Below, in pieces: positions 22,896 through 46,086 of a DNA stretch of 64,000 nucleotides. Numbering within the stretch: the first letter of the stretch is position 1; each line of letters opens with the position of its first letter. Below the pieces are notes generated by a model. That model was not told where the DNA came from. It made no database searches and saw only the letters and a program-made list of their open reading frames with translations. The stretch comes from Paramacrobiotus metropolitanus (lineage: Eukaryota; Tardigrada; Eutardigrada; Parachela; Macrobiotidae). The position numbers and the translations under genes were made by a program. The DNA lies in contig NW_026570308.1 of NCBI RefSeq assembly GCF_019649055.1, positions 496,001 to 560,000 on the forward strand, given 5' to 3'.

Positions 22896-22919
22896 ATTGG
22901 GGCGATCTGTTCCCGCGAT

Positions 22920-23045
22920 CGTTGAAAATCATAAAATCAAAAATTAATAGAAAATATAGAATTATAATAAGCAGTCCAAAATAAGCAGTTACAATAAGCA
23001 GTCCAAAATTAATAGAATTTATAATAAGCAGTCCATATGTGGCCA
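22920..23045. repeat. Short tandem repeat, AATAAGCAGTCCAAAAT-like unit
   Basis: Four or five imperfect copies of AATAAGCAGTCCA or AATAAGCAGTTACA separated by AT-rich spacers, just upstream of the GPCR start at 22895, in its presumed promoter or 5' UTR. Confidence 0.6.
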
Positions 23046-23536
23046 CAAAATAAATTATAAGAAAGTGTTTATGTAAAGCAGATCATATGAGCACATTTGA
23101 CCGGCCAGAATAAATCATGAATGACTACGTATTCTGGAGACTGGGCGTACGCGGACTTATCGAAATTATACTTCGCGCACCGATCCTGGTGACCGGTCTA
23201 TTCGCAGAAAGCTGCTGCAGCCTTTAAATCCAGTTTTGTTGAGCTGTGTATTCGTGCCGCCTAATAGCGTAATCTCGATCTTTGTTTACTAGAAGCATTT
23301 GAAACGCTATTTGAATATGTCACAAAAGCCGCCTACGTTGCCTGTCACAGTTTTCTGGAGCCAGTCATCTTTTCAATGAATTTATGTGCATGCTTCCGGT
23401 ATGAAATTTCCATGGAAATGTTCAAAACTAATCTGCTGTTTACGGATAAGTGAGATAACCATTAACCAACCCACGTAAAGGTGTCAGAATACAAAATCAC
23501 TTGGAGAAAAGCAGTTTCATAAAATTCAAAGAAATT

Positions 23537-23542
23537 TTTATT
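23537..23542 (-). terminator. Polyadenylation signal of the GPCR at 23.6-24.6 kb
   Basis: AATAAA on the minus strand, 31 bases past the stop codon at 23574. Confidence 0.6.
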
Positions 23543-23573
23543 GCCAACTGAAATTTTCTTTTTTACGGTGGAA

Positions 23574-24581: not shown

Positions 24582-25874
24582 TGTTCGGCAAGCTCGTAAA
24601 CCGTGACGACCGATTTAGCAATAGTTATTATGGCAAACCAAGTGCAGGCAGAAATACAGTCACGAAAGCCGTAAAACGTCTGCACTAAAATTTTCATACA
24701 ATAAAGAAACATCCAAGAAAAACAGCACGCGTTGGCTTAATTTAAAGATTACTCGAAGGCTGCCAGTAGTGCAACAACTAACTGGGCAAAATTAGAAATT
24801 TATCTCTTATCTGGAAAAGGTCGCTTCCGTCTTTTGGAAGTTTCTGCCATAAATAAGCTACGCTAATAGCTGGTAGCGTTGCATCGGTTTTCGCATTGAA
24901 AAATGAACTGAGGTTGTTTACGCTTCCAGGTAAAATGGTTGTTTGCTTGTGCTGACGCTCGCTTCACTGGAGTCGCCTTAATTGCTAACTCTTGGCCGAC
25001 AGCCAAAAGATCATGCAATACTTACTTGTTTTGAGCACATACTGTAGGTTATTAGCGGTCTGGGCTGGTCACGGTAAAGCTCATTCGTGACAATTAGACG
25101 GATCGGTTTTCCTGATATGTTGATACATTAGGTCGGGATTTGGACGCCAGCAAATTTTAATAACACGCCGTAGAGAAATGATTAGAGTATCGCGCTGACC
25201 GCTATTTCGAGGAATATGATTGTCGCACACCGTTGTAATCTTGCCGAATGTGCAGAACATAGAAAGACAACGAACTGTCGGGATTACCACGCTAATCATC
25301 TTGGTTCATGTTGGCCTGCTGGTAAATAACGTAGGCCATTTGGACTATCTTTTCTAATTATTTGCAGATGCTTTAGATAATAGGCGTGGTGCAGTCTTCG
25401 GTATCGAAATTTAACGCAGTTGTGGTGTTTTAATACTTTTGTTTTGGTGCGCAGTTACTAGTTTGTACCTGTGCCGTGATACTAATTAAAGGTTGCTGTC
25501 TCTCGGGCTCAGAGTTCTACTGTATCTGTACAAGTTCGAGCTGTCAGCCGTATTTAAGTGTCTTAAAATTCTGATCAGAATTGTACATTATTAAATCAAA
25601 TTCTATACTGCATATATAACGGCAGGAAAATTGATTTTATTACCTTGCATGTTAAACGGCAAAAGCAAATCGAAAAAGTTAAAATACAAAGTTTATGCTA
25701 CCAAAATATGTTACAGAAAAGAAAACAGATTTTTACACGTAATTCAAGATTATCACAACATCGGCAGTATGGCAAGGATAGCCTGGTACGTTGGCACAGT
25801 TCGTTCAAGCATACATACGCTATGACGTTGGCAAATGGCCTAGCTCTTATCCTTGCTTTTTTGGACATGATGAG
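24582..25874. other. Spacer between paralogous GPCR genes
   Basis: No coding feature is visible; short ORFs lack domains. Confidence 0.5.
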
Positions 25875-25876
25875 TA

Positions 25877-26083
25877 CCGTAATTATCGAATTAGAGCCCC
25901 AGGGTTACAAATATTTCAAACGCCTCACGGGGTGGGCTCCAGTTACGGGCATGGGCTTGTATTTCGGAGGGGACTCAATTTTTCAAACTAACTTTTTTGG
26001 CATTGGCTAATATGGGCTGTACAACATTTAATTAAGCCCATGGGCTTATATTTCGGGGGGAGCTTCTAATTCGATAATTACGG
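25877..26083. mobile_element. MITE with CCGTAATTATCG ends, TA target duplication
   Basis: The left end CCGTAATTATCGAATTAGA is matched by an inverted right end TCTAATTCGATAATTACGG (one extra base inside). TA stands on both sides (25875-25876 and 26084-26085). The 207-bp element has G-rich inner parts (TATTTCGGAGGG and TATTTCGGGGGG) and no coding capacity. TA duplication is the habit of Tc1/mariner and some other DNA transposons. Confidence 0.8.
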
Positions 26084-27312
26084 TATCTGTATTATTCTTA
26101 TTATTATTATTATTACGGCACAAGAGCAGACAACCCCAAAGGGACTTCAAGTCTGGTCGATCAAACTATGGACGAGGTCGACCACGGTCGTATGCTCCTG
26201 GGTTACAGGTACCTGTAAATCAAGTTACATTTAGCTAAAATTTAGCTAAAAGTATGTGTATGATTTCACAAAAAAACTGCATCGCGGACCGCACAGGATG
26301 AATTGTATAATGTATCCAGTACAGAGCATTTATATGTACCTTGCAGAATGCGTGAAACATGTAAGAATTCCATCGAGAGTGGCTTTTAAAGGTTGGCCTA
26401 TTTAAAGGTTAACTTAGCTTAGCCTAAGGAAATCATATTTTTATTCACGGTGTTTGCAACGGTAAAGTTTTATTTCTAAAGCAGTATGGTATCACAGTAG
26501 CCTATGTCGATTTTTTTTCTGAACGTTGAACGAAAATTCTGCAAAGTGAGACTTCTTCAAGACGGTGGTATTTGGGACAGAAGTATGCAGATAATCCTTA
26601 GTCTTGCTTTGAAGATCTATTGTATATCCAAATTAATAATATAATAGCCAGCAGCGCTCAACATTTTTTGCGAACAGAGTTTAAAGCACGATAAGAATTT
26701 TGCTGGGCCATATGCCTTCCTCAGAAAAATCGAACCCCGTAATTCGGCAGTGCAGTCTGGTCGTTTGAGTGGAAATACGTAACAGACCAGAAAAAATTGT
26801 ATGCCAGAAGCGTATGCAAAAAAACTGTAAAGAGTCCGTTCGACTCGCAAAATCGGTACGAGTATGGAACGATGGGGTTTTTTATCTGTATACGTTTTCG
26901 CTACAACTGGCGCTACAAACAGTTGGGCAATAAGACTCGTTGCTGATGAAACGATGTTACAGCAGCAGCCTATCTTTCAACAGTAAGACAATTATTGTGA
27001 ACGAGATGTTTCGTAATACACCAAAGTGTGATACGGTTATCAAATGCTAGATTATTAAGATCACTAGTTCAAAAATGGAATTATAAGTGAAAACATCGAA
27101 TTGTGCCATATATCATATGAATAATTCACTTGTATCAACGCAAACAAATTTTAATTAATGGTAGTTTATAGTGCATTTGGTAGTGACCCCGTCCACATCC
27201 AATGAAGCGTTCGCCTTCCCGCACAGGAATTTTCAGATTAATAGAAATGATATTACTTAAATCTGTAATATTCATTTTAAAATGGAAAATCGTGGCATAA
27301 TAATCGTAATAA
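26084..27312. other. Intergenic, with a short TTA microsatellite
   Basis: TTATTA repeats occur at about 26099-26125. No gene features are seen in the remainder. Confidence 0.5.
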
Positions 27313-28314
27313 TTATGCGTGAAATAAATTTCGAATTTCGACGCGCAAATCCTTAAGCGCAATGGAAAACAGAACCGGATCCAATGCCGGCTCCAGCGCC
27401 CATAATATCTGCCCCACTTCATACAGCTCCGCAATGTAGCGCTTGGCAAACAAGGAAATCGTGAAGAAACTAACCAGCGGCGTCCAGCAGATCACAACCG
27501 CCACGGTCAACAGCGTCAACACCGTGAACGACTTGGACGTTGACGTTCGCTGCTGCGGCGAATTGTCAGCGGTGGATATGCCATCCGAGGAATCTCTCCG
27601 CGACGCCTTCGCCAGCGACGGGACAACGGCACCTTCGCCGGTGTTCAGCCGGGGCCGAATCACCATTCGCGCTTTATGCCGTTGATGGCGTTTCCAACAT
27701 ATCACCGGATAGGCAAATAGAATAATAAAAACCGGGAGAATGTACAGCAGGAATTCAATAGCCATACTCCATTTCTCCTGTAGCGGATGACCTTCCGTAG
27801 TCATCAGGCAGTTAACATTGTCGGCGGTATTGCGAATCGTCGCGTCAACCAGTAAACCGGGCAGTAAAAATAAGCAGAAAATTATCCACATTCCGACGCA
27901 TAAAAGCAGAGCGGTTTTAGTAGAATGGTGGCGCTGGTAGAACAACGGAAAACTGACCGCCCAGATGCGGTTGGTGGTGATCAAAACATGCGACTGCATC
28001 ATCATGGCGTTGAACAGGTACACCAAGTGAATGTATGCTGCACAGAATGGTCCACTGTGCAAGGTGTCCGGCGACAACAGGAAAATTATCTCTACTGGCT
28101 TATAAAACACCGCGTGAAAGAGATTAGCGATCGTTAGGTTTGTTAAATAGCAACTGAAAGCGTTTAAACGTAGACTGCGATTGCGAAGGAATGCCAGTAT
28201 AACCGTTGCATTATTAAAAATTGTAAGTATACATAAGACTGTGGAATAAATCGCTCCAAAATGCCAAACCGGCCCCGACGCCGGTGAAGTATGGTTTGTT
28301 CCGTTGAACGGCAT
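27313..28314 (-). CDS. Rhodopsin-like GPCR, orphan, 333 aa, intronless
   Basis: I place the start at ATG 28314 (MPFNGTNHTSP); the open frame extends a little further upstream but without an ATG. NGT and NHT are possible N-glycosylation sites. The motif set is that of the neighbour at 23574-24581: IFNNATVILAF, NLTIANLFHAV (Asn at the sodium site), TTNRIWAV for DRY, VVICWTPLVSFF in segment 6 and LEPALDPVLFSIALKDLR for NPxxY. The third intracellular loop again holds a basic and serine-rich patch (ASRRDSSDG). The two genes are head-to-tail on the same strand, about 2.7 kb apart, so they arose by tandem duplication. Both keep long extracellular-facing and intracellular landmarks, so both are likely functional. 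Confidence 0.85.
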   Translation of the reverse strand: MPFNGTNHTSPASGPVWHFGAIYSTVLCILTIFNNATVILAFLRNRSLRLNAFSCYLTNLTIANLFHAVFYKPVEIIFLLSPDTLHSGPFCAAYIHLVYLFNAMMMQSHVLITTNRIWAVSFPLFYQRHHSTKTALLLCVGMWIIFCLFLLPGLLVDATIRNTADNVNCLMTTEGHPLQEKWSMAIEFLLYILPVFIILFAYPVICWKRHQRHKARMVIRPRLNTGEGAVVPSLAKASRRDSSDGISTADNSPQQRTSTSKSFTVLTLLTVAVVICWTPLVSFFTISLFAKRYIAELYEVGQILWALEPALDPVLFSIALKDLRVEIRNLFHA

Positions 28315-29424
28315 CTTGAGCTTACGAGTTATCACCGTATACTGCAGCGGAACAGTTTTTATCAGGACATCGAATATCGCTTGTTGCTGCTAAACCTCCA
28401 AAACAGATTAATTAGAATTTCTTTCTGAAGTTAAGGCTAAAATTAATATTGAAACAGTACTGGTGCCGCGCCCATTAACCAAATAGATCATCAACATTTA
28501 AAGGAAAGCTCGTGCATGTGTTGCGGTATTCCAGGCAGAATGGGACGAAACACAACAGTTTAGTAGCAATTATTTCGTACCCGAACCGGATTTGGAAATG
28601 CGCACAGCAACGTGCGTGATTAAGAATTGAGTAATTAGCCACCTTGTACGGAATTCCGTCAGCGCACGTGGAACTCTCGAGAGAGTTGCATGATATCAGT
28701 TTTCAGGTGAAAATTGCGATTAGCGCGAATTCCAGCTAATGTGTGCGATCGGAGGATATAAGGTTACCAGTGCAGATACCGCGAAGACACTTTATTAGAG
28801 CCAAGGATTAGGTAATGAGCTATTAGGTTTGCCAGCCCTTCTAATGACAAACCTAATCAAGGGTGTCTAAAGGGTGCCTGTTTCACCTTGTTTTCTGAAT
28901 TAGCCGAACTATCATAATTGAAAGATTGTGATTTTGCAAAATAAATTCAGCCAGAAAGATGTTTGACCGTATGAGCGTCTTCCTGGATATCTCAGTGAGA
29001 AAGTATTATCAACAGTGATCAGTGAGAAAGTATGTCTTTGCTGTTATAAAGCGCGTGTCACTTGTGAGACCTTTATAAATTTGGTGTTCAATGAAAATTA
29101 TTTACATAATTCTCTCTACATAATCAAATCACCCACTCTCTTCGTCGTACTATGAAACTGTATAACGATAGTCTTGCAATCAAGCAATCCAATCACACAT
29201 TTCGATATCTGGAAACTTCGTCTGTGGATGTTTACTGTTACGAAGTACGGGAGCTCGTCAAGGATCGCCATGTGACACAATTTGGGCCTTCGACGATGTT
29301 ACTTGGGGGGAATTTACATGAACCCCAAGTAATGTGGGTACGTCGTTTCCTCGTTGAACGGTCGCGTTCTTATGTTCCCTAGAGCTCTTGTTCTGCCTGT
29401 GTGCTTCAATTTTGTAGCGGTCAC
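28315..29424. other. Spacer and 5' region of the non-LTR retrotransposon
   Basis: The 5' boundary of the element is not visible. No LTR, no tandem promoter repeats and no clear second ORF are seen. Base composition becomes GC-richer from about 29.4 kb. Confidence 0.4.
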
Positions 29425-32286
29425 ATGCCGTCGCAGTTATTTTCTTGCTCTGGTTGTGGCAAGCAGCTACGAGGATGGGGAAACCACAAGAACGCTTGCC
29501 CAAAAACGTTGTCCACGACTATGGAGAAGATCCCCGTCACACCTTCCACGAGCGACAATTCCTCCGCTCCTGCGCCCACGCCCCCAACAGAACCGTTTCG
29601 CCCATCGAAGGAACGAATCATGCGGCGTATCCCACATGGAGCAAGGCCTGCTGCCAGGGCGTCGCTGTTAAAGGTTCTCCAGCAGGTCGCCACCAATAAT
29701 GACAGTAACTCTTGGTCGAAGCTGCTGTCCTTCGCGCCCACGGCTCTCCGTCAGCCCGTAAAGAGCAAGTCTGGACATTCAGGGTCCCTAGCGTCCACGG
29801 TTAAGCAGAACATCGGGATTTTTGATAGTGGCGCCGCAGTCCCTCCTACACCTTCGCCGCCCGCCAGGAAGAAGCGTACAGACCAGGATGATCTTGTGCG
29901 CAAGGTTGGGCAAAAAATTGACGACGGCTCAATTTCGGGAGCGATGAGAATCGTCATGTCGACTGACGCTGTCCTCCGACCGACTCCTGACGTCCTAGCA
30001 GAACTCCGTGAAAAGCACCCCGAGAGCGACCCACCCCTTGTAGTTCGCCCCGATCCGCCTCCTCAAGCGGCCGCCCGCATTACTCGGGAGGAAGTCTTCG
30101 CTGCCGTTCACAGCTTCCCAAAGGGTTCTGCCGCTGGGCCGGATGGGTTAAGACCGCAGCACCTTGCAGATATGGTCGGAGCCAAGCTGGACGCCCAATC
30201 TGCCCCCCTTTGCGACGCTCTGGCGACCGTCATGAACATCGCCATCGACGGAAACATTCCCGTTGGAGTACGCCCTGCATTTTTTGGTGGCAAACTGATC
30301 GCCTTAAGAAAGAAGGAAGGCGGGTTGCGCCCCATCGCAGTTGGGATGACTCTCCGCCGGTTGACAGCTAAGATAATTTGCGCCCGACTAAAAGACCGTT
30401 CAGCAGCCATTTTGTCTCCGCAACAATTGGGAGTAAACGTGCGCGGCGGAGCAGAAGCGATTGTTCACGCGACCAGGAAATTTATCGAATCCACTGGCGA
30501 CACGACCAAGGTTGTTCTCAAGGTGGATTTCAAAAACGCCTTTAACACCTTGTCTCGCGAAGCCGTTTTAACCGCAGCGAAAGAACGCTTTCCAGAGTAC
30601 AGCGATTTTCTCACCGCAGCCTACGGCCATCACTCTACCCTTTACGTGGACGACCTGACACTATCGTCGGAATCCGGTGTCCAACAAGGCGACCCGCTAG
30701 GCCCGCTGCTGTTCAGCCTCGCACTACACCCACTGATATCCTCGTTGAACGCCGAACTCAACGCCTGGTTCTTGGACGATGGGACCCTGGGCGGAGCTCC
30801 GGCGACAGTGGCGGAATGTTTCAGTCGAATAATTGAACGCGCTCGTGCTATCGGACTGCAGGTTAATGAAGCCAAATGTGAACTGTTTGTTTTTGGTGGA
30901 ACACTTGAGTCGCAGGGGAATGTCACAGCGGAATACATTGATCGTTTCCCGCGATTGCGCATTTTGTCGGCGTCTACTATGTCCCTACTTGGCGCGCCTG
31001 TTCTAGATGAAGCAATTGGGCCGCTACTCATCGAGAAAGCCAGCACCTTGAAGATGGTGTGCGAACGGCTTCAACTGCTTCCCAGCCACCAAGCACTGTT
31101 CCTACTGAAGAATTGTCTCGGCGCCCCGAAAATCATTTATATGTTACGGTGCTGTAATGCATGGAAATATCCTACCCTGCTATACCAGCTGGATGAAACG
31201 ATGCGCGCTTGTTTCCAGAATTTGTCGAACGTACGAACCAACCACAACGACTACCCGCCTTGGCGTCAGGCAACCCTCCCGGTTAGCAGAGGTGGAATTG
31301 GCATTCGTCGGTCGGAAGAATTATCTTTACCAGCCTTCTTGGCTTCGATTCATTCCGTATCCGGCTTGCTCTCTTCATTACTGCCTGACCACGGTGTTGT
31401 CGATGTTTCTGGTGCAGTGGAGTCATGGAAACTGAAAGCCCGCCAGCCAGAGATTCCAGAGTTAGCATACCGGAAGTCCCAAAAGGCTTGGGACTTGCCA
31501 TTATGCAACGTTTCCCTCTCCTCCCTGCTCGAGGTGTTTCAGGGTGACGAGCTAAATAAAGCGCGCCTGCTTGCTCAGTCCAGACCTGAAGCTGGGATCT
31601 GGTTGAACGCCCTGCCATCCGCTCACATTGGTAACCTGCTGGGCGACGACGAATTGAAGATCAGCGTTGGTCTCCGCCTCGGCGCTACGATCTGTGAACC
31701 TCACGACTGCGTCAAATGTCTCAAACCCGTGGATGGTTACGGTCACCACGGGCTGTCATGTGATTTCTCCGCCGGAAGGCACCCGCGCCACGGCGGGCTT
31801 AACAGTATCATCTGCCGAGGATGTGTGTCCGTCGGTGTGCCCGCAAAACTGGAGCCGCGTGGAACCTCTCACACTACGGAACGCCGCCCAGACGGTTGCA
31901 CGACATTTGCGTGGAAACGCGGGCTGTGTCTCGCATGGGACGTGACATGTGTAGACACGGTTGCGCCGTCACATGTCAAAGCAACTTCGACCACAGTGGG
32001 AGCGGCCGCCGTGCAAGCTGAGGATAAGAAATCCAGACTCTATATTTACCTAGCTGGCCGTTACCTATTCGTTCCAATTGCCTTTGAAACCATGGGTCCA
32101 TGGGGACCGTCAGCAATCGCATTTATCAAAGAACTGGGGAAGATACTTCAGCAGCAAACTGGCGAAGCACGCTCGCATGAATTTTTAAGACAGCGCTTGT
32201 CGATAGAGATTCAGCGGGGTAACGCGGCGTCAGTGCTTGGCACGATGGAAGGGCTGGATAAATTAAATGAGATTTTCTTGTTGTAG
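29425..32286 (+). mobile_element. Non-LTR retrotransposon ORF: reverse transcriptase with restriction-like endonuclease, 953 aa
   Basis: The frame is open from before the ATG at 29425 to TAG 32284-32286. An N-terminal zinc-finger-like motif CX2CX9HX3C covers about residues 7-27. Reverse transcriptase signatures follow: GSAAGPDGLRP (about 235), VVLKVDFKNAFN (about 362), GVQQGDPLGPLLF (about 417) and WFLDDG (about 448), which keeps both catalytic aspartates but has LDD where most elements have a Tyr-x-Asp-Asp box. A cysteine/histidine cluster (CEPHDCVKC then HHGLSC, about 755) precedes RRPDG...WDV, a PD-(D/E)xK pattern. RT, then a CCHC knuckle, then this endonuclease is the layout of R2-type early-branching LINEs. 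There is no premature stop, so the copy is young, possibly active, or under selection. AATAAA lies 46 bases past the stop. The target site and clade cannot be told from here. Confidence 0.9.
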
Positions 32287-32405: not shown

Positions 32406-35400
32406 TTAACCCTTCTTCTCCCAATTAATTTCATCCTCATTAACACATTTAGCAATTCTCGTTTCGTTCTTCTTCCGCTGTACTTCGCCGTTAACCAGCT
32501 TCTCCACTTGGTATTGCGTTTCGAATACCCGCGTAGACACTGCAAACCTCAAAGTACTGACATCCAATACGATGCCAGTGAACCCGGGATTATTTACCGT
32601 GGTATCCAAGTAATCCTTCGACTCACCTATTCAAGCAAGCACACAGTCGGATATTAGAGGCTACCCTTACTAGAATAAACAGAATAAACGCCACTTACTC
32701 GCTTCATAAGGAAACCAGTTGTAAGAGTTCAGCATGGTGTACGTCCTTAGGGTGTGAATAACAGCGCCCCCTTCTAGAGTCTGCGTTATGGACCGTCCGT
32801 AAGTCTGATTGTTGTACACCAGCACATACTGCCCTTCACGGCAGGTTTGTATTGTGCGAGTGGGGGCAATAACCGGAGGGTGGGGTAGTCCCTGTTGCGG
32901 GTTCTGCATAACCAAGCTGAAAATACGAAAATTGCTAACCCAGTTGTCGGATGTCACTATTCCCTTTACGCCAATCCTGCTGCAATGTGCTTAATGCACG
33001 GCGCATAAAAAATGCTCTTCGGGAAATTTTCGAAACAAAACGGCAGTTCTTCTTCTTTCCACGTGGTCGTGCTACCGTACGTGACAATTCTAGCCGCACA
33101 TAAAACCTTCTTTCAAAATACTTTCATTGATACTGAATCAAGAATACCTATTGACATCGTAAAAGCGCGTGCATTAGAAACATATTCAGATCTAACAGGA
33201 GAGTATTATGGTGGCCTTACATGCTTTCGTGACCTTTGGACGGGGTGTTCGTCACGATATCTTCGTCATCGGTGGGTTGTGGTGTTGTGGCTAATGTAGT
33301 TGGTTTCCTTTTCTTCGTCTTCCTGGTTGTTGTCTCTGTTGTTTCCTCGCGTACGTCAGTCTCGTCTGTTGTCACTGTAGACGGGAGGCTCGTGCTGGGT
33401 GTCGTTTTCCACACATTTCGAATCGGCGATTCAAGCCCAACGGTTACCGGTTCGACAAACTCTACCACTTCCCCAGGTTGTCTATCAGTTACCGGGATCG
33501 GTTTCCGCTCGGTTGACGTCGGTTTTGACGCTTGTGTTGTGGCTTCGGCGTCGCCTCCATCGTCATTCGGCTCGGTGGTTTTCCTGGCAGTTGCGGGTGT
33601 TTGTTGAGTGACCACACGGGGACTTTCCGCGAGTGTTGGTGTGACGATGGTTGACGTCGTCGATTTCACCGTGGATTTAGACGGCCGCACGCCGTTGCCT
33701 TCCTCATTGTCTGTTGTCGGTGTTGTAGTTGTCGGCATCGTTGTTGTAGTTGTTGTCGGTGTTGTAGTTGTTGTCGGTGTTGTAGTTGTCGGCAACGCGT
33801 TAGCAGCTAAGCTGCTAGCGCGTTTACGAGAACGGCTAGCGTTAATCGGAATGGGAGAGGTTATTTCTTTTTTCTTTGGCGTTGATTCTTCAGTTGTGGA
33901 CGTGGTTGCTGGTGGATCCGTCGGCTTAGATTTGGCTGGCAGCAGTTCTGTCAATATGTTCTATTCACATAATTACTATTTCGGATACATCAGTATATAT
34001 TGTAGTTTGAGGTGAATCAACGCTGGCGTTTTACCTCCGCAGATAAGATGCCTTAATTTCGTCGCATCACCGTCACTTAAATTGTCTCCTCCGCCGATTT
34101 TGCTAGCGCCCTTCTTCGCTGTGATTGTTGGAAGTTTGTCATCCGTCGACAAAAAGTTCGCGGCAGGATGCAGAAGCGATTCGTAGTCGTAATCGCCCGT
34201 ATCCAGGATTTTGCCTTCGATTTTGTTAAATTCTGCCTGCCTACCTAAAAAGACCCGTTTAGCGCTAATGTCGTGGATACTGATGCAGTTGATGATCTGT
34301 TTCCGTATTAAAAGGCAATCTAAACATTATTTATGCCCGAAGTTGGAAGAAGATCGTTTGACAACCGGACTTCTGATACGGAGGTTTACAAAAACCGCTC
34401 TCAAACACATACAAAATTATTCATTAAATTAATCATTTTAAATCGTCATCAAAGTTAATCATTTTTTTAGTTACAGTATGCGACAACGATCTTATAAAAG
34501 CTGTTAGATTCGCCCCATTAAAAACGTTTTCGCAACAGATCATGATGCACGTTAAGACTGCATAGTATGACTTACTTCCGCTAACGGAGGTGCATTCTGC
34601 GCGGTACTTGAGTTATTAATGAACGGATGCTAATTACAGTAGCGCAAGATTATGTACAACGTATCGTAATCCCACGTACCACAATAACTTAAAATTATAA
34701 ACATGATAATTACAAGTACGCAGATTGTTTAGTGTAAACTTTTTAAATGGTAACGTTAATGCTGATATCATACCGGGTTTTACATTGTCCAGATTGATGT
34801 TGATGTAGTCATCCCGGTCCGGTCGTACATGCTCATGTGGCAGACCCATGGCCAATAGAAACAACCGCCGCACCACAGCCACCTGTTTGCGGACGCACGT
34901 CTCATTCAAGACAATCGTGTGTTCGGCGTCCGCTGCATTTCCGCCAAATCTCGCCGCACAATGCGGACCGGACTTAATGCGCAGCATATTGAAGCTGGTA
35001 ACGATGCTTTCGACCTGATCGATGCCGCGAAAAACCGCGCACCGGTCCATGACCACTTCAATCTCCGGTAAGGCCTCCTCGATGACGAACTGGTAGAACG
35101 GCGGGTTTTCTACAGTAGCGTCATATTACTTAGAATTCTGCATATGGTATGGACCTAACTGTATAATTCGTTTGACTTCACCTGGAAAAAAATTGATGGA
35201 AAACGGAATAGTGTACTTTTCATCGTCGGGCAACTTGGGGAAAGGCGTGAGGGATGTCTGCAGCGGACATGGAGGATTCTTGGTGGCATCACATCCCAGT
35301 AGATCATCCTGATACAGCGGCTGGCCGGGTTTAGTGTCGGAATCGCTGTCCCAGTCACCATCCTCTGCAGACACTACACGACACTGTTATAGCTTCGGAG

Positions 35401-35629
35401 TACTGCATTTTGGAAGCACCTAAGTTATGTGCACACAGTGCACATTTTGACGACAAAGTACCTCTGATGACCATTAAATAACAAGGTACGTTACAAGTAT
35501 TGTTAATATGTTATATATTGTCATATTGGCATCCTTACCTAAACGCGTCCCATACACCAGGAATATACACACAGCAATGCTTGAAACGGCAGTTCGCACC
35601 GAGCATAAACCGTCTTTGCTGAAGCACAT
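32406..35629 (-). CDS. Secreted pseudo-astacin with Thr-rich mucin-like tail, 661 aa (copy 1, intact)
   Basis: Seven exons: 35539-35629, 35182-35364, 34774-35109, 34035-34244, 33221-33947, 32699-32916 and 32406-32626. All phases close and the frame is open. Exon 1 encodes a signal peptide (SSIAVCIFLVYG). Exons 2-4 give an astacin-like domain: EKYTIPFSINF, CAARFGG, GLPHEHVRPDRDDYI and DYDYESLLHP. The zinc site is destroyed: by alignment to HExxHxxGxxHE the first three key residues are Arg173, Leu174 and Leu177, and the Met-turn SxMHY is SLLHP. It therefore cannot be an active metalloprotease. Exon 5 (about 240 residues) is a Thr/Pro-rich, O-glycosylation-type tail with runs of PTTTTT. Exons 6-7 hold a C-terminal domain with KDYL, STRVFETQYQV and KKNETR, shared with the two genes downstream on the map. 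Likely an extracellular structural or binding protein. Confidence 0.85.
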
Positions 35630-37059
35630 AGTGTTAATGTGCGGTATATTCATGTGTAATCTACTGCGTGCAAGACAATCTCCATATGCTGTTATTGCTA
35701 ACTTCCAGAAATTTGCTACATTCTCAAGTTTCTTGTTAAATGTATCAACGTACGTACGAATCTGCGAATGAGACATAACCGGTTGATATTGCTAAAGGCG
35801 AAATTAATCTTTTTCATTTCCACCAGTTCCGCGCAGTACAATTGTTGTCTTCTAAATTATTATTAATTTTCCACATACGCTTATGGTTAATATTTTATGA
35901 CACACACACCAAAATAAAGCGCGGAAAACGCACCTAATACGCAACTGTAATTTAAAGGGAGCACAGTTAATCATCTGCATAAACTTCCTTATACATTTCC
36001 CAATAAGAAAATGTATGTATCTGCATTCATCGATGACTGCGCAGTATACACCACAATTTTATTAGCCCAGTGCCGCGGGGATAACAGTACAACGGACCAA
36101 ATGCTCGTTTTCCGTTACGGTTGTTCATTTGACAATACACGTGCACATGCTCATATTGACGTCAGATTTTATACTTCCGGCAGCATGTGTTCTGCGTTTT
36201 AGAGTATTTTGCCCAAAATATAAATCAGCAGTCTCACATTGCAGAGTCCGGCAGCCATTAATTTTATAATGTTATCAATTTATGAAAAACATGCATCTTG
36301 GGTTATTACGTACATAATTTGTACGTCGTCTCGTACATACTCTAATTTGCTCGTACATACTCCATAATTTACATGCACACTAGATAGGTATGATTCACGT
36401 GAGATGTCAAATAAAGCTTTTAACCTAAATTAATACTTTCACTGTGTTGTATTAATATTTTGACTGCTCTTGTAACTGTGCCATTACGCAAAGTGTATGC
36501 CCTATAATACCCCATTGCTTTCAACTGGCAGTTTGCTACATTCAAAATTGCCACAGCAAGAAATATTTCCGGCCCGGTTTACTAAACCAAGTTTAACCAG
36601 TAAAAAGTTGTTATACGTACTAAATGTCAAACAGTAAACTGTTCGAGTACTCACATTATTGTCCCAGCAGTTACGGTCGAAACTTTTGAAAACGGCTGAA
36701 CTAAACCTGGACAATAACGACGAAAATAAAATATATAAGAAGTTTGAAGAGCTTTGGATCCATCGAAAGCCACCATTTTTTTTCTCTAAACTTTTGCTGT
36801 GTAAAGGTCATACAGTTATGAAGGCGATTCTTGAACAAAGACAGGCTATTAGCCTTGTTCAAAAAAATGATAAAAAGAATTTAAATCTTTTAATTTTGTT
36901 TTACTCTGACAACTGCATGGAGAAATTCATAAAAGTGCTGTGCTCGTCTCGATCTTTTTATTGTGCGTAGCAGCCTCGTGCATCAACAATTGTCTCTTCG
37001 CACGGCCTCTTATATATAGACGCCAAAACGTACGAAAATCACCACCAGAATGCAAACGG
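35630..37059. other. Spacer between pseudo-astacin genes
   Basis: An ORF at 36659-36970 (plus) has charged residues but no ATG at its start and no recognisable domain, so I do not call it. Nothing else is seen. Confidence 0.5.
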
Positions 37060-37492
37060 TCATCTCCTTACATGTTCATCAACATAATCAGCACACTCAA
37101 CATAACGCGTTTCGTTCTTTTTCCGCATTAAACTGCCACCGTTCGGCAACTGCTGGATTCTGTATTTTGTGGAAAAGACCCGTGTTGAAGCCTCGAATTT
37201 CATTGTTCTAACCGTCGCAATGGCACCGTTAAACAATGGATAGTGAACGGTGTACGCTAAATAATCCCTTTCATCCTCTGCAAAAGAGAATCGCCGTAAG
37301 ATCTACCGCCTTTGAAAAACTGAGTCCCTGCTACGACTAAATAATATTCCATGAACAAAATAGAAACTGTCTTGACTATTATGATTGAACTCGTTAATTG
37401 TTCGGAAAAACCAGGCAGCGCAGAAGCTTGGTAATCTACTTCAAGCGTCTGCACACAAAAGTCTTCTTGGTGGTTGTGTAATAAGCAATATA

Positions 37493-37615
37493 CCGTAAAA
37501 CCCGATATTAACGCCCTGGGCCTTTATTTTTTCGAGAGCTTCGGGAGGGGGCGTTTAAAACCACAGGGGGCGTTTATTACGGGGGGGGGGGGGGCGTTAA
37601 TATCGGGTTTTACGG
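37493..37615. mobile_element. MITE with CCGTAAAACCCG ends, TA target duplication
   Basis: Perfect inverted ends CCGTAAAACCCGATATTAAC and GTTAATATCGGGTTTTACGG bound a 123-bp element flanked by TA (37491-37492, 37616-37617). The interior has a G14 run and GGGGGCGTTT repeats. It sits in the last intron of pseudo-astacin copy 2. The CCGTAA ends resemble those of the element at 25877-26083. Confidence 0.9.
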
Positions 37616-39874
37616 TACTCCATTACCTGCGTCTGGTGTAAACCAGTTCCAGTAGTAATAATTAGAATAATCTCGGATGGTGTGCGTGTGCAGACCGTCG
37701 ACCAGTATAGACGTGCGGGCCAGTGTCTGGTTAATGTACAGTTTCATCATTTGTCGAGCTGGGCAGTTCTGTGTGGGAGTGGGTAGGATTGCCATTTCCG
37801 GTATGGGGATCCCTGCAGGCAGTGCCGACGTTTCCGGCATGTCGCTGCAAATTGCAGTAAACCATTTGCAGTTTTATTCGTTGTACAAAGATTCTGAAAA
37901 GAAACACTTGTACTTACAAATTCTGAGTGGTGGTGTCTGGTACTTCGGTGGTTGTCGGTCTCTTAGGCCGTCTGCTGACTACTGTACTATGTACAACATC
38001 CTGGGTTTTCGTTATGGGAAACATTTTGTCCGTAACCTTGTTATCGTCCACCCGCATGGTTGTCACCTGTGTCATCGTTTCTGTCACGGTTTTTGTAACG
38101 GTCACAGTCCGCATATCTGTCTTGCTTCTTCTCTCGTCATCAGTCGGTTCCTCTGGATTCACTGAAACGAATGGCAAAGTGGCCACATCTGGTTTGGTAT
38201 CTAACGACGGTGTGGTGTTTTCGGATAGTGGGATTGCCGTGATGGCGGATGGCTGAATGGTATCGCTCCCATCGTTATCCGTAACCACTAGATCCCCAAC
38301 GGACGGGGAAATGAAACTGCTTTTTCCGTCTGTTCTCCGGTTGAGTTTCCGTGGAAGATGGAAGAGCCTCTTTGTGACAGAAGTGGAAGTGGCGTCCCCA
38401 TTCATGCTGCTGGCAGTTGTGGCTTTGCTGGTGGACGGCAGCTTTTCTACAAAATTATCATTGCAATGGAATAATTTGAATTAATTTGCAGTTTTTCAGC
38501 TGTAAATAAGTTATTCTACAGGTAACATGTAATTATAACTGGGCGGCGAGACGATGTTTTCGTTCTACAGAGTAGTTAGCAGCCGAAACAACACAGCTGA
38601 CATAAAAAGTAAGACATATAGCACTAATAACAAAATTCTGAATTAATTTTGAAACTATAATCATTTATACATACTAAGTTTTATTTTAAGTGCTTGCTGC
38701 TACCTCCACACAGTAGGTGCTTTAGTTTGATGACATCCTTGTCACTTAATTTGGTCGCTCCCCAAATCTTAAAATTTTTATTTTTGGCGGAAATTGTCGG
38801 CAATGTTTTATCCAGTGCGAGAAAATTTGAATCCGGATGCAGAAGCGATTCGTAATCATAATCACCCATATCGAGAGCAGCTGTACCGATTTTATCAAAT
38901 TCCGTTCTTCTTTCTATAAGACAAGTAGCAACACTGCATCACGATCCGGTAAGTATCAATCCAGTGAGGATAAAGTCCATTGAGATATTTACCTGGTGGA
39001 ACGTTTTCCAGGTTTATGCTAATGTTATCATCCCGGTCTGGTCGGACATGCTCATGCGGTAGTCCGATGGCCAACATGAACAAACGCTGAATTACCGCGG
39101 ACTGGTTGCCCACGCACAGCTCATTCAGGTGATTTCGTGTTCGGCGTCGGCTTCGGTACCCCCGAATCGTGCCGCACAAAAGGGACCCGCGTGAGCGGTT
39201 ACACGCAGCATGTTAAACTGCACGTCGCCCATCATGCTCTCCACATCGGCAGTTTGTCGGAAGGTGGCACAACGGTCAATGCTCAACTCGATGTTGGCCA
39301 GGGCTTCGATTATAAACTGATAGAACGGAGAAAGATCTACAGAGAACAGGATACAAGCTTTAAAATCGAACATATAATGGCTAGCAAGTTGGACAAGTTG
39401 TTCCTCGCTTTACTGCAGTTTTTCTGCAGTAAACAGTAAACACTGTTCACATTGAGCCTGTTTGCTTTGAACGACCTGGAGGCAACTGGACGAACTGTAC
39501 CTTTCGGACGGCTTTCTTCGAGCAGGTTGTCAAAATTGATGGTAAAAGGTATTATGTACTGCCCGTTATCAGGTGACGCAATAAAAGGAGTGAGCCGTGA
39601 CTGAAACCGACACGGCGGACTGCTGCTGGCGTCGCATCCTAAGAGATCATCCTGGAACAGTCGCGGAGCAGTCGCAGGTCCAGTTGCATCTCCCTCGTCT
39701 CCATTGGACTCATCTCCTGTTACAAACACTCATTAGGTTTGCACTCAGAAAAGTACCAACTTTGCACAGAACGAATTTTTGCGCCTGTAACAACTTCCAA
39801 TTTGATCCAACACACCAAACTCAAGATTACGTAGATTGAATACGTTGAATTACTGTAGTTGAATATAGATATTC

Positions 39875-39978
39875 GGACTATGAAAGTATTTTCAAGACAG
39901 CCGACTTTTTTGTTCATTGAACAAAAAAGTCGGCAATGAACAAGAAAGTCGGCTGTCTTGAAAATACTTTCATAGTCC
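39875..39978. repeat. 45-bp near-perfect inverted repeat (hairpin) in intron 1 of copy 2
   Basis: The arm 39875-39919 starts GGACTATGAAAGTATTTTC; the arm 39934-39978 is its reverse complement with one mismatch or so, ending GAAAATACTTTCATAGTCC. The spacer is 14 bases and itself repeats part of the arm. Confidence 0.9.
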
Positions 39979-40761
39979 AAAAGAAACAGTGTAAACAGTG
40001 TTCGGTACACCTTAAAATCAGCCGAAAATTCATAAGTATAAAGAGTTACCTGAAAGTGGTGCTGCAAGGATGACAATCCATACCGCGACGGTCGACAAGG
40101 AAATGTGATAAGGCGCAAAACTACCGCGACTGCTACGCATAGTGCCAAGTACGATCTGCTTTGGACTGTTGTAGCAGCGGCTGCACCAATTCAACTGTTC
40201 TTTGATATAAAAAGTTGCTGCCTTTGTGAAACTGACACCATAATTAATGTGTTGCAGTTCCATGCAAGAACCGGTTGGTACCGCTTGTGGCAACGCCGAT
40301 CCAGCGCGGCACATGCCATTGCTACTAAACTAGCGGGTTTGTATCTAACTGCATACAAGTGACGAACACGTGACGCATGAGTATTAGATGACAAGTTTTC
40401 AACATTTTATTCTTTTTCGATGTACGTTTGTATACAGTAATTTCGAAACCTGACAGGGAGAAAAAGTTAACGGATGGAGCTGATTTGAGAATTTTAAAGG
40501 AGGTCAAGACAAATACGCAATTTTCTTCCTTAACCTCAGTCATCAGTGCATCCACTCACTATCAAGTTAGCTTGATAAAATCGTTTTGCCTGCAAAAAAT
40601 AGTTTGTGTACCAATTATAATACGCTGTATCGACGACGTGGCGGCAAAAAAAATGACAAAAGCAACACCGGAACTTGTGTGGGTTTTTTTATTTTCCGGA
40701 ATTTGCTAAACTTTCTAGCCGAATCAGATTCAGACTTTGCGAACAAAAATCTGTCGCTGTC

Positions 40762-42676
40762 TCAGACTTTACGATAATTTGGCGAGTCCGTAAAATCTAC
40801 ACATTCCACGTATCTTGTCTCCGCTTTGGTTCGATACACTTCTCCATTGAAGATGCTCTGGACTTTGTATTCAGTTTGAAATATTCGTGTCGATGGTAGC
40901 AACGTCAGAGTAGCCACTGCCTGGACATCTCCAGCGAACTGTCGATGTACGATGGTCGATGCTAAATAGTCTTTTGTTTCCCCTGCAGGACACCATCCCG
41001 TTATCAGAACCGTATATTTACCGGTTACGGTCAAGAAATTGTCTTCATAAAACCTACCGCGACTCGGCATAGACCACACTTTGGAGTAGATCATGGAGGT
41101 CTTCATAAAGGTCTTTGTGCCCTCCTCGTCTGTGGTGATGGAGGACTGCGTAAACCACTGCCGATTGTGAATTTTCACTAGTTTGTTGCTGGGACATCGT
41201 TGCGTACGCGAGGGGTCGATGGCTCCTCGTGGAACAGGTGGTGGAGCTTCGGTCGTCTCTTCTTCCCTGCATACAAAGGCGTCATTAGGTTTGTCTATAC
41301 TTTACTGATGTTGCAGATGTAAAAGGCAAAACCGTCCGCTCGGTTTCTCTTGTACTTTTCCTTATTGGAAAAGAACCGCAAGGCCAATTTTCAGGCAAAC
41401 TGTTTCGCCGGGTAATTTTCTCGTAAACGAACGAACGAAACGTGTCAGGGAACCAGTTTGGGTTGATACTCTTCCAGCATCGAGAAAGGCCAAAAAAACA
41501 AGCGGGAAAATTTGACGCTGCACAATTTTATCATTCTACACATTTTTTGTCGGTTGAAGGTGTTATTCGCCAGATACCCAAGTCACCGGTTTTCTGCAGC
41601 GAAGCGCCGAAGCGGATTGCAGGCGCTTCATATTACCGCGTGGTAGTCTCCAGAGTGGTTCGCCTTCGGGTTTTCCGGGAACGCCGTCTGGTGGTGGTTG
41701 TCACTGTGGTCGGCTCATCTTCACAGTCGTCGTCGTCGCAATAATCCGGACTCGAGGTCGTCGTTGTGGTTGTGGGCGTTGTTGCTCTCCGTTTTCTCGA
41801 CCGCCTACGTTTCGGCGTAGTAGTCGTTTCCGGTTCTTCGATAGTAGTTGGCGTAGTTGTCGTTTTTCTAGTGGTCGTCGTGGTCGGTGTTGTTGTGGGC
41901 TCTTCCGTTGTTTCTTCCGTTGCCGTCGGCGTCGTTCTTCTCGTCGTTGTCGTGGTTCGTCGTGGAGTTGTCTCATCGTCAGGTGCATCAGGCGTTGTCG
42001 CTGAAGTTCTTCTCCTAGTCGATGGCTCGTCTGGTTCGTCGTCCGGCTCGGTAACTCGGGGCGGTGGCCGTTGCGTCACAGGCCATTTTCCGGGTGTAAC
42101 GAATATTCGTCGTGTCGCTAACGGCGGAGTGGGTTTGACCTGGCAAGGAGCCGTCGCTTTTTTGAAGGACGGAACGATATCGCTGTCATCTTCGTTATCG
42201 ATATCGGTACAATCATCGTCGGGGATCGGTTGCCGCACGGATGAAATATACGGCAGCGGGAGGCTGCTGCTGATGCGCTTACCCGGTTTTCCGTGTTTGA
42301 CGTCTCTCTTGATGAGATGCAGTTTATCTGTCAATACGATTACCTGTACGTTAACTACGCTCTACGTTTGGTAAATTGTCCTTACTAAGTTCTGTACACT
42401 TTTTAGATGGAATTTGTGAAAATATAAATTACCAACCGCTTTCTGCTATGTAAGAATCGATCCCATCGTGATCATCTGGATAAAAGCATTAAAAATATGA
42501 ATCGATTGGATAAAAGCTGTAAAAATATAAATCGATGTGTAGGCAACTTATGCGCATTTCCACAAATGTAAGAGTATCCGGATTCTTGTCGTACCTTGTG
42601 CAAGAACTGCTGATTGTTTAGAGCAAGCCAACAATACTGATGAAAGCGTAATTAATAAAGGGTGCAGGTTGTTCAT
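40762..42676 (-). CDS. Secreted Thr/Arg-rich mucin-like protein, 425 aa (third family member, no astacin domain)
   Basis: Three exons: 42595-42676, 41637-42327 and 40762-41266, phases 1 and 2, all closing. Exon 1 encodes a signal peptide (PLLITLSSVLLACSKQ). Exon 2 starts with a short acidic part (DDDCTDIDNEDDSD), then runs of Thr, Pro and Arg (TTTTRRTTPT and KRRRSRKRR) that suggest O-glycosylation and polybasic clusters. Exon 3 is the C-terminal domain shared with the two pseudo-astacin genes: QRCPSNKLVKIHN, AGETKDYL, STRIFQTEYKV and KAETRYVEC. The order signal peptide, Thr-rich exon, C-terminal domain equals the neighbours minus exons 2-4. The intron phases match, so simple loss of the astacin exons, or gain of them in the neighbours, would keep the frame. 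An extracellular matrix or cuticle-surface role is a guess. Confidence 0.82.
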
Positions 42677-43183: not shown

Positions 43184-46086
43184 TTACCTTGCGTTGTTTG
43201 CCCGGTGTCCTGCGTTGTTTGCCCGTTGTCTTGCGTTGTCCACCCGTTGTCCTGCGTTGTTTGCCCGCTGTCCTGCGTTGTTTGCCCGTTGTCTTGCGTT
43301 GTCCACCCGTTGTCCTGCGTTGTTTGCCCGTTGTCTTGCGTTGTCCACCCGTTGTCCTGCGTTGTTTGCCCGGTGTCCTGCGTTGTTTGCCCGTTGTCTT
43401 GCGTTGTCCACCCGTTGTCCTGCGTTGTTTGCCCGTTGTCGTGCGTTGTTTGCCCGTTGTCCTGCGTTGTCCACCCGTTGTCCTGCGTTGTTTGCCCGTT
43501 GTCTTGCGTTGTCCACCCGTTGTCCTGCGTTGTTTGCCCGGTGTCCTGCTTTGTTTGCCCGTTGTCTAGCGTTGTCCACCCGTTGTCCTGCGTTGTTTGC
43601 CCGTTGTCTTGCGTTGTCCACCCGTTGTCGTGCGTTGTTTGCCCTTTGTCTTGCGTTGTCCACCCGTTGTCCTGCGTTGTTTGCCCGGTGTCCTGCTTTG
43701 TTTGCCCGTTGTCTTGCGTTGTCCACCCGTTGTCCTGCGTTGTTTGCCCGTTGTCTTGCGTTGTCCACCCGTTGTCCTGCGTTGTTTGCCCGTTGTCCTG
43801 CGTTGTCCACCCGTTGTCCTGCGTTGTTTGCCCGTTGTCTTGCGTTGTCCACCCGTTGTCCTGCGTTGTTTGCCCGTTGTCGTGCGTTGTTTGTCCGTTG
43901 TCGTGCGTTGTTTGCCCGTTGTCCTGCGTTGTCCACCCGTTGTCCTGCGTTGTCCACCCGTTGTCCTGCGTTGTTTGCCCGTTGTCTTGCGTTGTCCACC
44001 CGTTGTCCTGCGTTGTTTGCCCGTTGTCTTGCGTTGTCCACCCGTTGTCCTGCGTTGTTTGCCCATTGTCCTGCGTTGTTTGCCCGTTGTCTTGCGTTGT
44101 CCACCCGTTGTCCTGCGTTGTTTGCCCGTCGTCGTGCGTTGTTTGCCCGTTGTCCTGCGTTGTTTGCCCGTTGTCCACCCGTTGTCCTGCGTTGTCCACC
44201 CGTTGTCCTGCGTTGTTTGCCCGTTGTCTTGCGTTGTCCACCCGTTGTCCTGCGTTGTTTGCCCGTTGTCCTACGTTGTTTGCCCGTTGTCTTGCGTTGT
44301 CCACCCGTTGTCCTGCGGTGTTTGCCCGTTGTCGTGCGTTGTTTGCCCGTTGTCCTGCGATGTCCACCTGTTGTCCTGCGTTGTTTGCCCGTTGTCTTGC
44401 GTTGTCCACCCGTTGTCCTGCGTTGTTTGCCCGGTGTCCTGCGTTGTTTGCCCGTTGTCTTGCGTAGTCCACCCGTTGTCCTGCGTTGTTTGCCCGTTGT
44501 CGTGCGTTGTTTGCCCGTTGTCCTGCGTTGTCCACCCGTTGTCCTGCGTTGTTTGCCCGTTGTCTTGCGTTGTCCACCCGTTGTCCTGCGTTGTTTGCCC
44601 GGTGTCCTGCTTTGTTTGCCCGTTGTCTTGCGTTGTCCACCCGTTGTCCTGCGTTGTTTGCCCGTTGTCTTGCGTTGTCCACCCGTTGTCCTGCGTTGTT
44701 TGCCCGTTGTCGTGCGTTGTTTGCCCTTTGTCCTGCGTTGTCCACCCGTTGTCCTGCGTTGTTTGCCCGTTCTCTTGCGTTGTCCACCCGTTGTCCTGCG
44801 TTGTTTGCCCGGTGTCCTGCTTTGTTTGCCCGTTGTCTTGCGTTGTCCACCCGTTGTCCTGCGTTGTTTGCCCGTTGTCTTGCGTTGTCCACCCGTTGTC
44901 CTGCGTTGTCCACCCGTTGTCCTGCGTTGTCCACCCGTTGTCCTGCGTTGTTTGCCCGTTGTCTTGCGTTGTCCACCCGTTGTCCTGCGTTGTTTGCCCG
45001 TTGTCTTGCGTTGTTTGCCCGTTGTCTTGCGTTGTTTGCCCGTTGTCCTGCGTTGTCCACCCGTTGTCCTGCGTTGTCCACCCGTTGTCCTGCGTTGTTT
45101 GCCCGTTGTCTTGCGTTGTCCACCCGTTGTCCTGCGTTGTTTGCCCGTTGTCTTGCGTTGTCCACCCGTTGTCCTGCGTTGTTCGCCCGTTGTCCTGCGT
45201 TGTTTGCCCGTTGTCTTGCGTTGTCCACCCGTTGTCCTGCGTTGTTTGCCCGTCGTCGTGCGTTGTTTGCCCGTTGTCCTGCGTTGTTTGCCCGTTGTCC
45301 TGCGTTGTCCACCCGTTGTCCTGCGTTGTCCACCCGTTGTCCTGCGTTGTTTGCCCGTTGTCTTGCGTTGTTTGCCCGTTGTCTTGCGTTGTTTGCCCGT
45401 TGTCCTGCGTTGTCCACCCGTTGTCCTGCGTTGTTTGCCCGTTGTCTTGCGTTGTCCACCCGTTGTCCTGCGTTGTCCACCCGTTGTCCTGCGTTGTTTG
45501 CCCGTTGTCTTGCGTTGTCCACCCGTTGTCCTGCGTTGGTTGCCCGTTGTCCTGCGTTGTTTGCCCGTTGTCGTGCGTTGTCCACCCGTTGTCCTGCGTT
45601 GTTTGCCCGTTGTCCTGCGTTGTCCACCCGTTGTCCTGCGTTGTTTGCCCGTTGTCTTGCGTTGTCCACCCGTTGTCCTGCGTTGTTTGCCCGTTGTCCT
45701 GCGTTGTTTGCCCGTTGTCTTGCGTTGTCCACCCGTTGTCCTGCGTTGTCCACCCGTTGTCCTGCGTTGTTTGCCCGTTGTCTTGCGTTGTCCACCCGTT
45801 GTCCTGCGTTGTTTGCCCGTTGTCCTGCGTTGTTTGCCCGTTGTCTTGCGTTGTTTGCCCGTTGTCGTGCGTTGTTTGCCCGTTGTCCTGCGTTGTCCAC
45901 CCGTTGTCCTGCGTTGTTTGCCCGTTGTCTTGCGTTGTCCACCCGTTGTCCTGCGTTGTTTGCCCGGTGTCCTGCTTTGTTTGCCCGTTGTCTTGCGTTG
46001 TCCACCCGTTGTCCTGCGTTGTTTGCCCGTTGTCCTGCGTTGTCCAACCATTGTCCTGCGTTGCCCACCCGTTGCCCACCCGTTGC
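43184..46086 (+). repeat. Minisatellite, 21-bp unit, about 138 copies
   Basis: The unit is GTTGTCCTGC followed by GTTGTTTGCCC or GTTGTCCACCC. Variation is almost confined to two places: the sixth or seventh base (C, T or G before TGCG) and the TTG/CCA trinucleotide. Variant types recur in similar short series, hinting at higher-order repeats. As 21 is a multiple of three and the unit has no stop in any frame, several frames on both strands stay open for 500-1000 codons. These are not genes. The array decays at both ends. Confidence 0.97.

Follow-up and report, generated by a model that had tools for sequence, protein, structure and literature searches.

The 64-kb window analysed here (the whole stretch C88:496001-560000 of the tardigrade Paramacrobiotus metropolitanus, from a searched genome of 169.8 Mb in 533 contigs) contains at positions 32406-42676 three related genes on the minus strand, C (35629-32406), B (40140-37060) and A (42676-40762). 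They belong to a family in which the astacin peptidase domain, where present, has lost its zinc site (called here a dead astacin). Gene models were built from open frames and splice sites. Both C and B code, in this order, for a signal peptide, an astacin prodomain, the astacin domain, a Thr-rich exon and a C-terminal domain (CTD). Gene A has the signal peptide, the Thr-rich exon and the CTD and no astacin exons, just as the initial annotation of this DNA had described. The hydrophobic N-termini suggest that the proteins of the family are secreted; in gene C an in-frame upstream ATG is also present at 35653. The tail, called mucin-like in that annotation, deserves the name by its Thr content (Table 1), and Thr, Ser and Pro together make up ~48% of the stretch in C, 38% in B and 46% in A. 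A furin-like site in this spacer was considered as a common feature and discarded, being present in A and B and absent from C.

The exons measure 91, 183, 336, 210, 727, 218 and 221 bp in gene C (662 codons including the stop), 91, 216, 344, 210, 529, 218 and 215 bp plus the stop in gene B, and 82, 691, 209 and 221 bp in gene A (401 codons including the stop). All the introns are GT..AG and of phase 1, except for phase 2 after the Thr-rich exon. The picture of three genes with a dead astacin, a Thr-rich exon and a shared CTD holds overall, with two corrections. Equal exon lengths of 91, 210 and 218 bp, proposed for the whole set, are found in B and C and not in A, where they are 82 and 209 bp and the 210-bp exon is missing. 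The common origin itself is well founded, given the same intron phases at matching exons and a match of B to C over exons 3-4 alone (E=1.5e-39) that is far beyond chance. The other correction concerns gene B, which is not intact in the assembly. Its exon 3 (39336-38993), with 344 bp, is one base out of phase and has an in-frame TGA at 39125-39127; the shifted relative frame is open through all later exons and the break lies outside any homopolymer. This 1-nt frameshift could be real or a sequencing error; the available text of PMC11191345 describes the published genome as a Canu assembly drawing on Oxford Nanopore (ONT) reads.

Loss of the zinc site and extent of the family

The pro and astacin region of gene C matches Pfam Astacin (PF01400) with E=3.6e-22 and 79.4 bits (cut-off 22.5), and the nearest PDB sequence to its astacin part is Tolloid-like 1 (E=3.6e-12). 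The segment at the zinc site is RLFLLAMGLPHE in C and RLFMLAIGLPHE in B and the Met-turn is SLLHP in both, in agreement with the earlier description of an astacin scaffold without HExxH and without the Met-turn Met. An alignment of eight dead-astacin members (the near-duplicate L002 was omitted) gives the consensus [RQE]Lxx-L-AxG[LF]P[HR] in place of HExxHxxGxxH and SxLHP in place of SxMHY. In all eight the first His is replaced by Arg, Gln or Glu, the Glu by Leu, the second His by Leu, the Met of the Met-turn by Leu and its Tyr by Pro. The third zinc His is retained in seven of the eight, L006 being the exception, and an intact HExxHxxGxxHE is found in 0/8. An alternative exon restoring the motif was also considered and rejected at the DNA level, because HExxH is absent from all six frames of the window between 32 and 43 kb.

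The framework of the domain is nevertheless kept. The four astacin Cys are present in 8/8 members and presumably form the two disulphides, and the family-specific Glu after the third His and RxDRD are equally constant. This Glu followed by RxDRD corresponds to an astacin motif described in the available text of PMC9848320, according to which the Glu of active astacins pairs with the mature N-terminus. The prodomain has the pattern [FYI]Q[DEN]D[LIV] in 8/8, so that the zinc-blocking Asp of FXGDI is kept and the Gly is not, and it carries an added Cys pair, again in all eight members.

Members were located by tblastn-type searches of the genome with the astacin part of gene C and four CTD queries, and the loci were then read. 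The earlier suggestion of multiple copies proved right well beyond the array of the window. We found ten CTD loci (A, B, C, L002, L003a, L003b, L004, L005, L006 and L007) and, among the matches listed, at least nine dead-astacin loci (B, C, L001, L002, L003a, L003b, L004, L005 and L006), that is, seven more CTD loci and at least seven more dead astacins elsewhere in the genome. The CTD count leaves out C1:1782311 (E=0.04) and C88:194541 (E=2.6, containing a stop), judged to be chance matches or decayed. Genes with a CTD and no astacin domain are A and L007, and none of the CTD loci found in the genome has its CTD joined to an active astacin. The exons are open in all the modelled members with the exception of the frameshifted B.

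Comparison of dN and dS, proposed earlier as a check, revealed purifying selection, so that a lack of such selection, named with that check among the refuting conditions, was not borne out. The astacin parts of L002 and L005 differ over 172 codons by 23 synonymous and 3 non-synonymous changes (dS 0.229, dN 0.0075), and for L003a and L003b dS is 1.69 and dN 0.22. By maximum likelihood, omega is 0.132 in the astacin domain (9 sequences, 172 codons), and in the CTD (10 sequences, 116 codons) it is 0.153; these are the last of two values in the log, the earlier ones being 0.141 and 0.185. Fixing omega at 1 (kappa 2) is worse by 210 log units for the astacin and by 105 for the CTD. As judged from these sequences, the family has an astacin domain without zinc site, with its framework intact and under purifying selection, which is what defines a metzincin pseudopeptidase, i.e. 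a metzincin domain without catalytic residues that is maintained by selection.

L002 (C35) and L005 (C195) are near-identical in an uneven way: their CTD exons are identical over 119 codons, and in the astacin exons there are 27 differing sites, of which 23 are synonymous. This mosaic suggests gene conversion or haplotype mixing, and the two may be haplotypes and not two genes.

In a FastTree phylogeny of 114 sequences and 131 columns (the 8 family members plus 106 of 120 other astacin regions of the genome, those with at least 100 aa; L043 was labelled active by default despite having no zinc-site call) the family is monophyletic with an SH-like support of 0.995. Its sister is L039 (0.905), followed by the active L126 (0.83). 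L039/L131 (C6:237.8k), the probable sister, shares with the family the change of Glu to Leu and the same exon 3/4 boundary. It differs in its HLLMH with all three His retained, in SITHF, where Met is already Thr, and in an ordinary EGDI prodomain; no added Cys pair was seen and no CTD was found in it. The losses in L039 are confined to the Glu and the Met, which makes a stepwise loss, with Glu first and His later, plausible, although its position as sister has moderate support and it is the only sequence of the kind known. The CTD tree groups L007 with L003b (80.1/81) inside a clade at 99.6/100, and A falls on the side of B and C (85.2/81). Because A and L007 are on different sides of the 99.6/100 clade, the simplest solution is that the astacin part was lost on two separate occasions, and the CTD-only genes probably arose twice.

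Table 1. Exons of genes A, B and C (positions of the window), other loci of the family and paired astacin units (contig and position).
Feature	Position	Strand	Remarks
Gene C exon 1, signal peptide	35539..35629	-	core VSSIAVCIFLV, mean Kyte-Doolittle 2.81
Gene C exon 2, prodomain	35182..35364	-	YQDD motif and CxxxxxxPPC pair
Gene C exon 3, dead astacin, first part	34774..35109	-	RLFLLAMGLPHEHVRPDRDD replacing HExxHxxGxxHE
Gene C exon 4, dead astacin, second part	34035..34244	-	SLLHP replacing SxMHY
Gene C exon 5, Thr-rich mucin-like stretch	33221..33947	-	27.0% Thr of 241 aa
Gene C exon 6, CTD, first part	32699..32916	-	
Gene C exon 7 with stop, CTD, second part	32406..32626	-	
Gene B exon 1, signal peptide	40050..40140	-	
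Gene B exon 2, prodomain	39501..39716	-	FQDD motif
Gene B exon 3, dead astacin, first part	38993..39336	-	1-nt frameshift and TGA as assembled
Gene B exon 4, dead astacin, second part	38704..38913	-	SLLHP
Gene B exon 5, Thr-rich	37918..38446	-	20.0% Thr of 175 aa
Gene B exon 6, CTD, first part	37627..37844	-	
Gene B exon 7 with stop, CTD, second part	37060..37277	-	
Gene A exon 1, signal peptide	42595..42676	-	
Gene A exon 2, Thr-rich	41637..42327	-	27.1% Thr of 229 aa
Gene A exon 3, CTD, first part	41058..41266	-	
Gene A in-frame stop-free intron in CTD	40983..41057	-	75 bp; homology to B and C; retention possible
Gene A exon 4 with stop, CTD, second part	40762..40982	-	
Family locus L001	C37:500k		
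Family locus L002	C35:106k		
Family loci L003a and L003b	C88:187k, 191k		
Family locus L004	C88:485k		
Family loci L005 and L006	C195:78k, 125k		
Family locus L007	C88:177k		
Active astacin-LRR-like unit, then dead (HLxLH) unit, L128	C135:29500-38500		
Active astacin-LRR-like unit, then dead (HLxLH) unit, L129	C58:241500-250500		
Active astacin-LRR-like unit, then dead (HLxLH) unit, L130	C92:471000-480800		

The C-terminal domain

The CTD, encoded by two exons, has about 115-130 residues. Besides two Cys, eight other residues are invariant in 9/9 aligned copies, and identity to the copy of gene C is 43% for B and 36% for A. Pfam-A gave no match for any of nine members (E up to 10, HMMER filters on), NCBIfam none for the three members compared, and the PDB sequences none that was credible, the best of 12 listed being C/EBP beta with E=0.066, taken as chance. 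Among prokaryote genomes there were 70 pattern matches and none was confirmed, a weak test made by one 64-aa single-protein scan. Two AlphaFold models with different first sequences (A and L006) had mean pLDDT of 73.8 and 72.5 and pTM of 0.65 and 0.66. Both predict an antiparallel all-beta domain with mostly well scored strands (21-39, 42-58, 107-116, 119-126 and 134-150 in A; 20-34, 41-53, 96-105, 108-115 and 125-138 in L006) and both include an intron-derived insert of low pLDDT, as contiguous translations were used. With Foldseek, 0 of 959 and 0 of 759 matches listed at E<=10 reach E<=0.001. VIA Z scores stayed under the stated noise level of 8, the best being 5.2 for one model (8i34, sponge EPD-BCP1, with LolA in several rows at 4.0-4.7) and 6.6 for the other (5mdo, a porin). 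No fold can be named for the CTD because the top structural rows of the two models differ. Its assignment to a known domain was rejected, as no Pfam, NCBIfam, credible PDB-sequence or above-noise structural match was obtained. The domain is, by the libraries searched, a new sequence family, as the initial annotation had proposed, and is predicted to be an all-beta domain without clear relative.

Apart from this, the CTD introns of A (40983-41057) and L006 (about 2927-2988) are in frame and free of stops, and their retention would still yield a protein.

Other astacins of the genome and other features of the window

The astacin set of this genome is large, with at least 164 matches. We took 120 other regions, non-randomly, from the matches listed and scored the zinc site in 117 of them (L035, L042 and L043 gave no call). 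Of these sites 80 have HExxHxxGxxH, 22 keep three His without the Glu and 15 miss at least one His, i.e. 37/117 lack the intact motif. The sites were read from the best tblastn alignment and some of the calls of lost His (e.g. L124, L034) may be exon-edge artefacts. Among the 22 Glu-lost sites, 19 form a clade (HLxLH, support 0.972), and 17 of these have a member of an active clade of 18 sequences (0.935) no more than 21 kb away, on the same strand in 16/17 and with the active member on the 5' side in 17/17. The tree distances of 16 such pairs are correlated (Mantel r=0.957, matched in 0/20,000 permutations), indicating that active and dead halves were duplicated together. Against this neat picture, the node uniting the 18 active and 19 Glu-lost sequences has a support of 0.0; in addition, 2 of the 18 active sequences had no fetched dead partner. 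Parts resembling leucine-rich repeats (LRR) follow in these units, where LRR_8 was above the cut-off in one of the four scanned. At C135 (L128) the open frame of the active unit and the exon frame with which the dead one begins lie just 92 bases apart, and for this reason the pair is likely one two-headed gene.

A further clade of seven dead astacins with lost His (0.903) was found at C36 (about 443k-520k, 1070k and 1087k), C51:764k, C52:533k and C1:2190k; four of the seven are on C36, which holds active astacins too. No active astacin was found in the 64-kb window, so the family there has no active neighbour. This repeated retention of dead astacins in the genome makes it more plausible that the window family has kept a use, without revealing which.

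Some other features surround or interrupt the three genes. Directly downstream of gene C, at 29383-32286 (+), there is a retroelement with an open frame of 967 aa and a reverse transcriptase (PF00078, 65.7 bits). Open frames resembling rhodopsin-type G protein-coupled receptors occupy 22002-28389 (-); the part scanned, 22005-22928, matches 7tm_1 with 30.9 bits vs 30.5. At 43190-46063 and 53523-54260 there is a minisatellite of 21-bp units (about 88-90% matches), so that both strands have very long open frames; a related array, in the opposite orientation, is found 7.5 kb away. Intron 1 of gene B has at 39872-39981 a near-perfect inverted repeat with 48-nt arms, 96% complementary and 14 nt apart. 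In intron 6 of the same gene (about 37492-37620) ends that by eye resemble an inverted repeat, ccgtaaaacccgatattaacgcc and ggcgttaatatcgggttttacgg, flank a poly-G run, perhaps a small transposable element.

Relation to known pseudopeptidases and possible role of the family

The family resembles the astacin peptidases (MEROPS M12A, with Tolloid-like 1/BMP1 as the nearest solved) in the PF01400 match, the four Cys, the family Glu, RxDRD and the prodomain Asp. It departs from them in the absence of HExxH, of the Met-turn Met and of the Tyr ligand, in the extra Cys pair of the prodomain, and in having a Thr-rich stretch and the CTD at the C-terminus instead of EGF, CUB or other known modules. The pseudopeptidases among the ADAMs (ADAM22, ADAM23) are similar in being extracellular metzincin domains that have lost HExxH and, according to the available text of PMC11266112, their zinc site is replaced and the domain is used for protein contacts. 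However, they belong to another metzincin family and keep the Met of the Met-turn (same text), lost in the window family, in which no disintegrin or transmembrane part was recognised. The Glu-lost astacin-LRR clade of the same genome (HLxLH, 19 sequences) is alike in that a dead astacin domain has been kept in many copies, but there the three zinc His and mostly the Met-turn are preserved, the C-terminal parts are LRR-like and an active relative stands beside 17/19.

In the literature searched, mostly open-access and in part, we found no astacin pseudopeptidase that has lost its metal site entirely and shows this order of domains. The available text of PMC11266112 mentions astacins once, as metzincins, and does not treat astacin pseudopeptidases. 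That of PMC9848320 does not deal with them either and states that only sequences with an intact zinc motif were retained, so that zinc-less astacin genes would be filtered out. In the main text of the paper on sexual dimorphism in P. metropolitanus the words astacin, metalloprotease, mucin and protease occur 0 times. Pseudopeptidases are a known kind, well described among the ADAMs, and the zinc-less astacin version with this domain order appears to be new.

We consider it fairly probable, from the sequences, that the family consists of secreted astacin pseudopeptidases acting as non-catalytic extracellular binding or scaffold proteins; the chances attached to this and to the other readings are partly overlapping judgements and were not computed. 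The folded zinc-less domain would be retained as a binding module and the Thr-rich spacer, probably O-glycosylated and mucin-like, would hold it to the disulphide-bonded all-beta CTD. Proteins would be bound through the old cleft or the surface, with the CTD serving as anchor, and the site could be the cuticle, the egg coat, or the gut or pharyngeal lining. The action might consist in occupying the substrates of the many active astacins or in forming pairs with these enzymes. As the spacer and the CTD persist in two genes that have no astacin domain, the constant role of anchoring or binding probably falls to the CTD, and the dead astacin would add specificity as an optional module. Several facts weigh against this role: gene B is frameshifted as assembled, for the dead astacin L001 no CTD was found beside the locus or on its contig, all the copies are known from genomic DNA, the signal peptides were called by hydropathy, dS reaches saturation between B and C and in several other pairs, and the sequences point to no binding partner.

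The frameshift of gene B, the loss of the catalytic residues and the size of the astacin set (at least 164 matches) could be expected if the genes were decaying pseudogenes, functionless leftovers of an astacin expansion. We regard this as improbable, since the exons of the other modelled members are open, dN is far under dS (omega about 0.13-0.15), the four Cys and the motifs are kept in 8/8, the loss is shared and old, and the shift in B could be an error of the nanopore assembly (PMC11191345, available text), though it is outside a homopolymer. Proteases with an unusual metal site, built on the third His and other residues, would explain why this His is kept in 7/8 and are hardly credible, given that two His, the catalytic Glu and the Met and Tyr of the Met-turn are replaced in 8/8 by hydrophobic or charged residues or Pro, and that L006 has lost the third His too.

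A low but appreciable chance is left for the dead domains being dominant-negative regulators of active astacins. They would modulate proteolysis outside the cell, either by dimerising with the active enzymes or by binding their substrates, inhibitors or activators. The family-specific Glu (8/8) and the third His (7/8) are kept despite the lost zinc ligation, active astacins are many (80 of the 117 scored among the matches listed) and elsewhere in the genome dead and active domains adjoin and were duplicated together; against it, no active astacin was found next to the family within the window. It is likewise rather unlikely that the astacin domain is inert baggage being lost while the Thr-rich spacer and the CTD work as structural mucin-like proteins. 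The CTD-only genes A and L007, in separate clades, would fit this, but omega is as low in the astacin domain as in the CTD, and the astacin domain has more conserved motifs.

Returning to the binding or scaffold role, a broader and tentative reading, which we think doubtful as a whole, would join all these astacins in one extracellular network of proteases and pseudoproteases. About one third of the astacin domains would be dead in several long-lived lineages, and active and dead astacin-LRR units would co-duplicate, possibly as a two-headed protein. The window family would have gone furthest, dropping zinc entirely and acquiring a Cys pair in the prodomain, a mucin-like spacer and a beta domain that belongs to a new family, as a dedicated decoy or scaffold for astacin substrates in the matrix of the surface or the gut. 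Zinc-less astacins kept by selection in multiple copies, alongside active relatives and a sister that is probably half-way, all of the same genome, would make it possible to test directly how a protease turns into a binding protein, and they warn that astacin gene counts in tardigrades overstate proteolytic capacity.

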